A DNA stretch of 34,788 nt. It comes from Bordetella parapertussis. Its GTDB lineage: Bacteria; Pseudomonadota; Gammaproteobacteria; Burkholderiales; Burkholderiaceae_E. The position numbers and the translations under genes were made by a program. The notes under the pieces are model-generated. The model saw only the letters and a list, made by a program, of their open reading frames with translations, was not told where the DNA came from and made no database searches. The DNA lies in assembly GCA_945883285.1 (NCBI GenBank), contig CAMCXH010000011.1, positions 1 through 34,788 on the forward strand, given 5' to 3'. Below are positions 2,303 through 31,385 of the stretch, piece after piece. Positions within the stretch are counted from its first letter, which is position 1. Every line of letters starts with the position of its first letter.

Positions 2303-2591
2303 TGGTGGGCCTCCCGTGAGTCGAACACGGCACCAACGGATTCGGGTTTGTGTGGCTTTCGCCACTCCCTGGACTTTGCCTTCACCTTATCTGTCCGACT
2401 TAGGTGGGTGCCGTCAAGTCTCTACACCTTCAACGATGCACACGCATCGAAGCTTGGCTCGGCATTGCCCTATGCAGGATACGCACTTAGGTTTCACCGA
2501 CTTTGACACCATCCCATACGCCGTTTCCGAATCGTATGGCACAACTTGCGCTATGAGTCCGCTGCTCTAACCAAGCATGAGCTAGAGGCCC
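2303..2591 (-). tRNA. ileX-like: tRNA-Ile(CAU), interrupted by a group I intron
   Basis: The minus strand reads as a complete tRNA in two exons. Exon 1 (2591-2553) has acceptor GGGCCTC, D-stem GCTC/GAGC and anticodon stem GCGGA, and ends at CAT. Exon 2 (2342-2303) has the rest of the loop, stem TCCGT, T-arm CCGTG-TTCGACT-CACGG, acceptor GAGGCCC and an encoded CCA (2305-2303). Joined, the anticodon loop is CTCATAA with anticodon CAU. The acceptor and loop resemble the betaproteobacterial isoleucine tRNA whose C34 is changed to lysidine by TilS to read AUA, rather than elongator methionine tRNA; this assignment is inferred. The mature length is 79 nt. The D-loop is 11 nt, with five nucleotides between A14 and the GG pair, slightly longer than usual. 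Confidence 0.92.
2343..2552 (-). ncRNA. Group I intron (IC3-like) in the anticodon loop of tRNA-Ile(CAU)
   Basis: This 210-nt insert sits between CAT of the anticodon and AA of the loop. The 3' end is G (2343), as expected for the terminal guanosine, and the 5' exon CAU can pair with an internal guide GUG (2542-2540), giving the required U.G at the splice site. P2 is CCATACG/CGTATGG with a GAAA-containing loop. P3 is GGTGTC/GGCACC, P7 is GACTT (2420-2416)/AAGTC (2376-2372), P8 is CACCT/AGGTG, and P9 is GTGGC-GAAA-GCCAC (2365-2352). From memory, wording and fold match the self-splicing Azoarcus tRNA-Ile(CAU) intron (about 205 nt). P7 seems to differ from Azoarcus by a compensating pair change. 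There is no room for a homing endonuclease, so it is a minimal ribozyme, probably vertically inherited. Confidence 0.92.
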
Positions 2592-2679: not shown

Positions 2680-3552
2680 ATGCGCTGGGAAGATGGTCGA
2701 CAAAGCAGCAATGTGGAAGATCGAAGGGGGATGAAGATGCCTGGCGGCAGGGCCGGAGGCCTGGGCATCGTCGGTATCGGTATTGCACTGCTGGCCAGCT
2801 GGATGTTCGGCATCAATCCCATGGTCACGCTCGGCCTGGTCCAGGGTGTCAGCAAGCTCGGCAGCCCCAGCGCACCCCAGCAGGTTCAAGGCCAGACCGG
2901 CCCGGTCGCCGATCCCGGCGGCAAGTTCACCTCGGTCATCCTTGCCAGCACTGAAGATGTCTGGACCGACGTCTTCAAGAAGGCGAACCAGCAATACCGC
3001 CCTCCCAAGCTGGTGATCTTCGATGGCGTCACGCCCACCGCCTGCGGCACCGGGCAACAGGCTGCCGGTCCTTTCTACTGCCCCAACGATCAGACGGTCT
3101 ATATCGACCTGAGCTTTTATCGCATGCTGAAGCAGCAGTTCGCGTCGCCCGGCGATTTCGCCCAGGCCTATGTGGTGGCGCACGAGGTCGGCCACCATGT
3201 CCAGAACCTGCTGGGCACCATGAAACAGGTGCAATCGATGCAGCAGCGCGCCGGCGAGCGGCAGGCCAACCAGCTGTCGGTGCGCCTCGAGCTGCAGGCC
3301 GATTGCTATGCCGGTGTGTGGGCGCATCATTCGCAGCAGGCTCGCAACTGGCTCGATCGCGGCGACATCGAGGCCGGCCTGAATGCCGCTTCGCAGATCG
3401 GCGACGACAAGATGATGAAGCGCTCGCAAGGCGTGGTGGTGCCCGATGGCTTCACCCACGGTTCGGGTGAACAGCGCCGCTATTGGTTCGCCGCTGGCAT
3501 GAAGTCGGGACAGCCCGGCGCCTGCGATACCTTCAAGCAGACCTCGCCCTGA
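2680..3552 (+). CDS. ypfJ: Neutral zinc metallopeptidase, YpfJ family
   Basis: This 290-residue protein opens with the family hallmark MRWEDGRQSSNVEDRRG, followed by a glycine-rich stretch and a single membrane helix (about residues 28-45). That predicts an inner-membrane anchor with the catalytic part in the periplasm. The zinc-binding motif HEVGHHVQN starts at H168, and the downstream LELQADCYAGVWAHH supplies the third ligand region. Conserved cysteines (TACGTGQ, FYCPNDQ) fit the family. Length and architecture match the usual 280-300 residues of Pfam family PF04228. Substrates are unknown for the family. ATG 2680 is fixed by the conserved N-terminus, though the upstream SD is weak. It is divergent from the tRNA and 82 bases ahead of the lipoprotein gene. 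Confidence 0.92.
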   Translation: MRWEDGRQSSNVEDRRGMKMPGGRAGGLGIVGIGIALLASWMFGINPMVTLGLVQGVSKLGSPSAPQQVQGQTGPVADPGGKFTSVILASTEDVWTDVFKKANQQYRPPKLVIFDGVTPTACGTGQQAAGPFYCPNDQTVYIDLSFYRMLKQQFASPGDFAQAYVVAHEVGHHVQNLLGTMKQVQSMQQRAGERQANQLSVRLELQADCYAGVWAHHSQQARNWLDRGDIEAGLNAASQIGDDKMMKRSQGVVVPDGFTHGSGEQRRYWFAAGMKSGQPGACDTFKQTSP

Positions 3553-29459: not shown

Positions 29460-31385
29460 TCAGTGCCTGACCGGCTCGGCGAGCAGTCGGGCCACCTCGT
29501 CATGCAACCCCTGCGGCGTAACCGTGTCGGGCGCCACCGGCGGCCCGGCCACCAGCGCCACCCGATTGAAGAATCCGCGCCGAAAGGGCTTGACCATGGC
29601 CTTGCCGTTCTCGATACGCGAAAAATAGGACCCATAGAGGTTATGCAGCGCGATCGGCACGACCGGCACCGGGTCAGCCTCGAGGATCTTCATCACGCCG
29701 CCGCGAAACTCCTTGAGCTCACCGTCGCGAGTGATGCCACCCTCCGGAAAGATGCCGAGCAGGTCGCCCTCGGCCAGCACGGTGCGCGCGGTCTCGAAAG
29801 CCGCCTCATAGGTTTGGGCATCTTCGCGCTGCGGCGCAATCGGAATGGCCTTGGCCAGCCGAAAGACCGCTCCGAAGCCCGGGATTGCGAAGATCTGATA
29901 GTCCATGATGAAGCGGATCGGACGCGGGCTTGCCGCCATGACCAGCACCGCATCCATGAAACTCACATGGTTGCAGACGACCACTGCCGCGCCCGCCACC
30001 GGGATGTTGTGTTCGCCCTGAACCTTGAAGCGATAGATCAGCCGCGACACGACAAAGGCGATAAAGCGCAGCAGATACTCCGGCACCAGCATGAAAATGT
30101 AGAAAGCGACGACCGCGTTGGCAATGGCCAGGAACAGAAAGATCTGGGGAATGCTGAAGCCCGCACCCAGCAGCAACCCGGCAATCACCGAACTCGCAAT
30201 CATGAAGATCGCGTTCAGGATGTTGTTGGCCGCGATGATGCGGGCGCGATGCGAGGGCTGCGAGCGCATCTGGATGAGGGCATACATCGGCACGCTGTAG
30301 AGGCCGGCCGAAAGCGCCAGCATGCCGAGATCGAAGAGCACTCGCCAGTGGCGCGGCGCGGCCACGAAAGCACCAATCGACTGCATCTCGACCACCGGCA
30401 GGCTGCGCACCGAAAAGTAGAGGTCGAGCGAAAACAGCGACATGCCGATCGCGCCCAGCGGCACCAGACCGATCTCGACATGCCGGCGCGACAGGGTCTC
30501 GCACAGCAGCGAGCCGATCGCAATGCCAACCGAAAACACCACCAGCAGCAGCGAGGCGACCTGCTCGTCGCCATGCAGCACATCCTTGGAGAAGGCCGGA
30601 AAGGTCGACAGAAAGACCGCGCCGAAGAACCACATCCATGAGATGCCGAGCAGCGAGCGAAACACCACCAGGTTTTCGTGCGCAAGCTTCAGATTGCGCC
30701 AGGTTTCGGTAAACGGATTCCAGTTGATCACCAGACCCGGATCAGTCGGAGGCGACACTGGAACGAACTGTGCGCAAAGCCGGCCGATCACCGCGACCGC
30801 GATACAGTGGATCGCAACATAGCGCACACCCTCGCCCGGAATCGCGATCAAGAGGCCGCCGGCGATATTGCCGAGCAGGATCGCCACGAAGGTGCCCATC
30901 TCGACCATGCCATTGCCGCCGGTGAGCTCCTGCTCCGACAGATGCTGGGGCAGATAGGCGTACTTGACCGGCCCGAAGAGCGTCGAATGCAGACCCATCA
31001 GGAAAACGCAGATCAGCAGCGCCGGCACATTGGCGGTGAAAAAGCCCCAGGCCGCAATCAGCATGATCACGATCTCGAGGTCCTTGACCAGCCTGAACAG
31101 ACGACGCTTTTCGAGCTTGTCGGCCAGCTGCCCGCTGGTGGCCGAAAAAAGCAGATAGGGAAGAATGAAGAGCGCACCGATGACCAGCCCTGCCTGCGCC
31201 GGCGGCAGCCAGCTGACCTGCAGCTGATAGGTGATCAGCACGGTGAACGCAAACTTGAACAGATTGTCGTTGCCGGCGCCAAAAAACTGCGTCCAGAAAA
31301 AAGGCGCGAAGCGTCGCTGCCGCATCAGCGCGAACTGGTTGGGATGTTCGGCCTGGGCGTGAGCGGATTGAGCGGGATCAGTCAT
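29460..31385 (-). CDS. LplT-type MFS carrier fused to a PlsC acyltransferase
   Basis: The 641-residue product joins two parts. Residues about 25-420 form a twelve-helix MFS carrier like LplT (FGAGNDNLFKFAFTVLITYQ, LFGPVKYAYLPQHL), which flips lysophospholipids across the inner membrane. Residues about 440-641 are a PlsC/LPLAT domain with the catalytic NHVSFMD (about 471) and the substrate motif FPEGGI (about 545). So it probably imports lysophospholipid and reacylates it, or makes phosphatidate. E. coli has LplT beside Aas, whose third part is an acyl-ACP synthetase; that part is absent here, so the acyl donor must come from elsewhere. ybaK and plsY follow downstream. Confidence 0.9.
   Translation of the reverse strand: MTDPAQSAHAQAEHPNQFALMRQRRFAPFFWTQFFGAGNDNLFKFAFTVLITYQLQVSWLPPAQAGLVIGALFILPYLLFSATSGQLADKLEKRRLFRLVKDLEIVIMLIAAWGFFTANVPALLICVFLMGLHSTLFGPVKYAYLPQHLSEQELTGGNGMVEMGTFVAILLGNIAGGLLIAIPGEGVRYVAIHCIAVAVIGRLCAQFVPVSPPTDPGLVINWNPFTETWRNLKLAHENLVVFRSLLGISWMWFFGAVFLSTFPAFSKDVLHGDEQVASLLLVVFSVGIAIGSLLCETLSRRHVEIGLVPLGAIGMSLFSLDLYFSVRSLPVVEMQSIGAFVAAPRHWRVLFDLGMLALSAGLYSVPMYALIQMRSQPSHRARIIAANNILNAIFMIASSVIAGLLLGAGFSIPQIFLFLAIANAVVAFYIFMLVPEYLLRFIAFVVSRLIYRFKVQGEHNIPVAGAAVVVCNHVSFMDAVLVMAASPRPIRFIMDYQIFAIPGFGAVFRLAKAIPIAPQREDAQTYEAAFETARTVLAEGDLLGIFPEGGITRDGELKEFRGGVMKILEADPVPVVPIALHNLYGSYFSRIENGKAMVKPFRRGFFNRVALVAGPPVAPDTVTPQGLHDEVARLLAEPVRH

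Follow-up and report, generated by a model that had tools for sequence, protein, structure and literature searches.

The group I intron in the pre-tRNA-Ile(CAU) of Azoarcus sp. BH72 belongs to subgroup IC3 and is 205 nt long, and its fold is stabilised by two long-range tetraloop/receptor contacts. Reviews list tRNA group I introns in cyanobacteria and in a few alpha- and beta-proteobacteria (PMC4033280), and the tRNAscan-SE 2.0 paper (PMC8450103) mentions introns of this class in the tRNA-Ile2 genes of Acidovorax and Burkholderia. Here we analysed a 34,788-nt stretch of DNA (the window) from an uncultured Burkholderiales bacterium, whose assembly (G000) is 94% complete and consists of 249 contigs. 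The window also carries a match to Burkholderia RNA 11 (RF02835, 94.7 bits) at 30576-30697 on the minus strand.

Positions 2591-2303 of the minus strand read directly as GGGCCTCTAGCTCATGCTTGGTTAGAGCAGCGGACTCAT, a 210-nt intron and AATCCGTTGGTGCCGTGTTCGACTCACGGGAGGCCCACCA (Table 1). With introns allowed, ARAGORN returned identical boundaries, the same 210-nt intron and a normal cloverleaf; at default, without introns, it reported zero tRNAs in the whole window and missed the split gene. The acceptor stem contains C4-G69 and C5-G68, as in other tRNA-Ile2; these pairs are recognition features of TilS. Since initiator (fMet) and elongator tRNA-Met genes are present separately in the genome, and given these two pairs, we assign the split gene to tRNA-Ile2(CAU) and not to tRNA-Met. 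The assignment thus combines a cloverleaf, a CAU anticodon in a tRNA distinct from both Met tRNAs, the C4-G69 and C5-G68 pairs and a TilS gene, encoded on contig C70, with a lysidine that is predicted.

Table 1. Position of the split tRNA gene, the parts of its intron and the flanking gene in the window
Feature	Coordinates	Strand	Description and evidence
tRNA-Ile2(CAU) 5' exon	2553..2591	-	39 nt; 3' end is the anticodon CAU (2555-2553); sequence, ARAGORN with introns, C4-G69 and C5-G68 as in other tRNA-Ile2
Group I (IC3, Azoarcus-type) intron	2343..2552	-	210 nt; after U36; terminal G at 2343
tRNA-Ile2(CAU) 3' exon	2303..2342	-	40 nt, CCA encoded; sequence, ARAGORN with introns; uninterrupted orthologues in congeners
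P1	2540..2555	-	Exon CAU and intron AGC / GUU and guide GUG, GCAA loop; sequence and fold
P2 with GAAA loop (L2)	2514..2539	-	Two-sided covariation in 5/7 outer pairs; 96% of cells paired
P3 5' strand GGUGUC	2505..2510	-	Pairs with 2412-2407; invariant in relatives, partly from the search pattern
P4-P6 domain (P4, P5, P5a, P6, P6a)	2426..2500	-	Double changes in all five helices
P7 5' strand GACUU	2416..2420	-	Covariation alignment
P3 3' strand GGCACC	2407..2412	-	Covariation alignment
P8 with receptor-like CCUAAG/UAAGG	2383..2406	-	Covariation alignment and motif search
P7 3' strand AAGUC	2372..2376	-	Distal pair U-A here; paired in 43/43 introns
P9 with GAAA loop (L9)	2352..2365	-	Two-sided covariation in 4/5 pairs; 100% paired
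KPN_02809/YpfJ-family neutral zinc metallopeptidase gene	2680..3552	+	NF050010.1, 370 bits; marks the orthologous locus

The junction sequence CAUAGC-GCAA-GUUGUG folds into a single 6-bp hairpin, P1 (-4.3 kcal/mol), in which the guide GUG lies opposite CAU with a U.G at the splice site; a terminal G closes the intron. Motif search placed a receptor-like CCUAAG/UAGGG within P5 of the P4-P6 domain, and P9.0 is also present. The initial annotation had described a 210-nt insert without an endonuclease, splitting the anticodon loop after CAU, with a guide GUG, a terminal G, the P3, P7, P8 and P9 pairings and GAAA in the P2 and P9 loops. Direct reading and ARAGORN with introns agree with its boundaries almost to the base, the intron has no protein-coding capacity, and each of the listed parts was recovered from sequence, covariance search and covariation.

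In a local scan, the Rfam group I model RF00028 covered positions 2350-2559 end to end with a significant score of 37.1 bits (E 4.7e-8); genome-wide this was the sole such match (E 9.8e-8). The score is below the curated Rfam cut-off of 50 bits, which is a curation threshold and not a biological feature. A control intron, the 205-nt L118 from a complete genome of the order, scored 49.1 bits and so also fell short of it; its 197 nt from the guide onward are those of the Azoarcus ribozyme, so we take L118 to be the Azoarcus intron. Because the Azoarcus intron itself misses the cut-off, the latter is no argument against membership. A core model built from relatives gave the window intron 147 bits, the window intron being among its training rows.

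To examine the fold in related introns, relatives were collected with an exact 29-base core pattern, which identified 44 such genes in 84,980 GTDB species genomes. The full structure was specified, with P7 as a pseudoknot, and pairs were counted on 43 distinct introns. In total, 98.0% of cells were paired. Changes on both sides were seen in 23 of 51 pairs, compared to 13.6 in shuffles (0/500 as high), and double-change cells numbered 196 versus 53.6 (0/500), with shuffles that ignore relatedness; sliding the partners left only 3-9 double-change pairs. The double changes fall in P2, P5, P5a, P6, P6a, P9 and P9.0, and also in P4. P3, most of P7, and P8 show no variation among the relatives; for P3, the first four P7 pairs and one P8 strand this invariance is partly due to selection, since an exact core pattern was used for the search. 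For the core, with its P3/P7 pseudoknot, P4-P6 and P8, the full-length RF00028 match and the covariation in the 43 introns agree.

The distal P7 pair is A-U in 32 introns and U-A in 11, with zero exceptions among the 43, and the intron tree implies three or more switches between the two states. The guanosine-site pair in P7 (intron positions 133-181) is G-C in 43/43. GAAA caps both L2 and L9 in 44/44 introns, and simple regular expressions found a motif of the 11-nt receptor type in P8 of 43/44 and in P5 of 36/44. Judging by these motifs, the GAAA loops L2 and L9 are predicted to face receptors of the 11-nt type in P8 and P5. Sequence, covariance search and covariation together confirm the element as a group I intron of subgroup IC3 and of the Azoarcus type.

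The proposed splicing pathway follows from these parts. In the precursor, the intron GUG would pair with the anticodon CAU, and the U.G wobble would mark the 5' splice site, which exogenous guanosine bound in P7 would attack. The freed CAU-OH would next attack the bond that follows the terminal G and thereby ligate the exons. In the matured tRNA, TilS would convert C34 to lysidine, allowing it to read AUA. We infer this chemistry, its occurrence in vivo and the dependence of AUA decoding on it from sequence. In the 94%-complete assembly, screening of 36 other tRNA hits revealed no second tRNA-Ile(CAU): the CAU anticodons read among them belong to fMet and elongator Met, and the six lowest-scoring hits are class II tRNAs judging by their length of 82-88 nt. 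An exact search for the 5' half followed by CATAA gave zero matches in this genome. Given a draft assembly of 94% completeness in 249 contigs, which could lack a second intact copy, the gene is likely rather than proven to be the only one. No tRNA-Ile(UAU) was seen in the genome, and AUA is rare: a heuristic set of ORFs from the window uses it for 15 of its 476 Ile codons. From the single copy, the presence of TilS and the lack of a visible tRNA-Ile(UAU), the view of the initial annotation that AUA decoding depends on splicing of the intron is a sound prediction.

Two other accounts of intron activity were weighed against this reading. The intron could be inactive and the gene a pseudogene, if AUA were decoded by an intact tRNA-Ile(CAU) encoded outside the assembled contigs. 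The incompleteness and fragmentation of this metagenome-assembled genome (94%, 249 contigs), the rarity of AUA and the degenerate copies in some relatives (L102, L196) would accommodate such a situation, but the core elements are complete, neither exon is damaged, the exons fold as a tRNA, the 289 nt are 97-98% identical in five species of the genus, and no other copy was found in the assembly; we regard it as highly improbable. Alternatively, excision in the cell could be aided by host proteins rather than proceed by pure self-splicing. Group I introns often use RNA chaperones. A review (PMC3984707) cites studies of RNA chaperones with the Azoarcus ribozyme, and the window intron, taken alone, folds with no more than ordinary energy (z -2.2). 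However, sequence motifs for both long-range tetraloop/receptor contacts are present, and we consider help from host proteins unlikely. The best explanation overall is an Azoarcus-type group I intron in tRNA-Ile2(CAU) that would be spliced as proposed, to which we assign a probability of roughly 96%.

We compared the locus across 12 genomes of the genus. The intron is present in five, which are 97-98% identical over 289 nt, and the exons are contiguous in four. G001-G003 and G005 (loci L033-L036) share the gene, the flanks and the 210-nt intron with the window and differ by a few substitutions. In G006 and G009 the uninterrupted tRNA gene adjoins the same YpfJ-family gene as in the window, so insertion or loss of the intron was exact; the exons are contiguous in G010 and G011 too, with a matching flank. 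The other three (G004, G007, G008) gave no tRNA-Ile(CAU) match, probably owing to assembly gaps. In the intron tree, a clade (98/89) unites the five congeners; it is joined by L071 and next by introns of Gulbenkiania, Azonexus, Limnobacter and Dechloromonas (99/99), which reside in genes of the other exon type. Many introns from named organisms adjoin rpoD. A single mobile island shared by the Gulbenkiania, Limnobacter, Dechloromonas and Azonexus introns was considered and dropped, as their flanks are the ordinary rpoD-tRNA-Ile locus.

The data are compatible with ancient inheritance followed by losses as well as with lateral movement. An ancestral intron that was lost in the intronless congeners, rather than gained within the genus, would agree with the occurrence of the same intron kind in tRNA-Ile(CAU) of many betaproteobacterial families, often beside rpoD. 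The window locus, however, adjoins ypfJ and not rpoD; the nearest introns outside the genus come from other families, some in genes of the other exon type; and the intron tree requires five or more changes of exon label, a pattern suggestive of movement between genes. We hold ancestry with loss to be a real but somewhat doubtful possibility.

Loci of the relatives contain further traces of rearrangement. An orphan 5' half of tRNA-Ile(CAU) lies upstream of 19 of 64 intron-bearing genes versus 2 of 78 intact genes (Fisher P-value 5e-6, ignoring kinship and with an intact set partly chosen by similarity to the window exons). Such halves (L062, L065, L067, L070, L071, L072, L075, L084, L086, L095, L101, L104, L107, L108, L121, L123, L127, L172 and L174) end at the anticodon loop or shortly beyond it and are separated from the downstream gene by about 150-220 nt; beside the window gene there is none. 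In L062, L071, L072, L127 and L172 the orphan and the gene are of different exon types, so simple copying of the orphan does not account for the intron-bearing gene. At L107 and L099 an orphan 3' half lies about 2 kb downstream and joins the inserted DNA in CTCATAA, within the anticodon loop; no integrase lies between the tRNA halves at either locus, which makes them element remnants at best. The 3' half downstream of L070 was rejected as an att scar: it carries the 3' end of the intron and is a partial duplication. In G036, a genome of the same family as the window, a PF00589 tyrosine recombinase (L258, 17487-18536 of G036:C3) sits directly beside an orphan tRNA-Ile(CAU) half, and an intact tRNA-Ile(CAU) lies 56 kb away. 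For the relatives, this arrangement suggests that elements may integrate at the anticodon loop, split the resident gene and leave a foreign intron-bearing tRNA-Ile. That the intron-bearing tRNA-Ile(CAU) would serve these relatives as an integrase-proof spare, its DNA target site gone and its RNA still made, seems improbable to us; disrupted tRNA genes as shields are an earlier proposal by Randau and Soll, cited in PMC4390854.

According to the initial annotation, the class to which the intron belongs is known from Azoarcus and a small number of further bacteria. The Azoarcus type holds, and the spread was understated: besides the 44 genes recovered by the exact pattern in 84,980 genomes, a core covariance model trained on 28 introns and applied to 399 genomes of the order matched in 61 of them, belonging to 46 of 159 genera. 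Strict filters were used, and the counts are therefore minimal. Introns in tRNA-Ile(CAU) after U36, as in the window, were found in 11 genomes, and a second site in this tRNA, between U33 and C34, is occupied in about 18 of the order genomes sampled (L127, L166, L168, L170-L179, L181, L182, L184-L186). The remaining hosts are mostly tRNA-Leu(UAA), tRNA-Leu(CAA), tRNA-Ser(UGA), tRNA-Arg(CCU), tRNA-Thr(UGU) and apparently tRNA-Asn(GUU), with a few unresolved.

Among these hosts, introns in tRNA-Ser(UGA) occur in the order at L125, L131 and L156, and those apparently in tRNA-Asn(GUU) at L165 and L183. Introns with the same core interrupt tRNA-Thr(UGU) at L111 (Roseivivax halodurans), L163 and L164; the Ile(UAU) label that ARAGORN gives to L111 disagrees with the exons, which correspond to tRNA-Thr(UGU). 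A narrow literature search found no publication on group I introns in tRNA-Thr(UGU). Azoarcus-type introns are also present in tRNA genes on eight IMG/VR viral contigs (L188-L195), some of them beside other tRNA genes; according to a 2014 review, all phage group I introns observed to then were in protein-coding genes. Matches to the window intron itself on plasmids and phages were partial only. A Comamonas plasmid carries a decayed intron copy beside an IS3 transposase (L196), and a jumbo phage a tRNA-Leu-like intron (L197).

When compared to the Azoarcus sp. BH72 intron, the window intron resides in the same tRNA, is inserted likewise after CAU and shares the GUG guide, the core and the GAAA loops L2 and L9. 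Its 78.7% identity to L118 bears out the proposed close kinship. The two differ in length (210 nt in the window versus 205 nt), in the tips of P2, P5a, P6a and P8, and in the bulged base of the two receptors (G/A in the window, U in Azoarcus). The matched change in P7 that had been suspected is real: the distal pair is U-A here and A-U in L118. The cyanobacterial tRNA-Leu(UAA) and tRNA-fMet introns are likewise small group I introns of the anticodon loop, in other tRNAs and at other insertion points. The Acidovorax and Burkholderia tRNA-Ile2 introns are of the same kind, in the same tRNA and order, and are missed by standard tRNA finders; the passage of PMC8450103 that names them includes neither sequences nor insertion site, and some may occupy the site after U33. 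We regard the window intron as a well-supported new case of an intron kind that is already known, and whose location in tRNA-Ile2 was reported before (PMC8450103). It adds a clearly defined natural variant of one of the most intensively studied ribozymes; its matched P7 change, and the orthologue that lacks the intron in sister species, make it useful for structure-function work. It comes from a group of genomes in which standard annotation silently misses an essential tRNA gene. With matches in 61 of 399 genomes of the order and in several tRNAs, betaproteobacterial tRNA group I introns are much commoner than the 'few' of the reviews.
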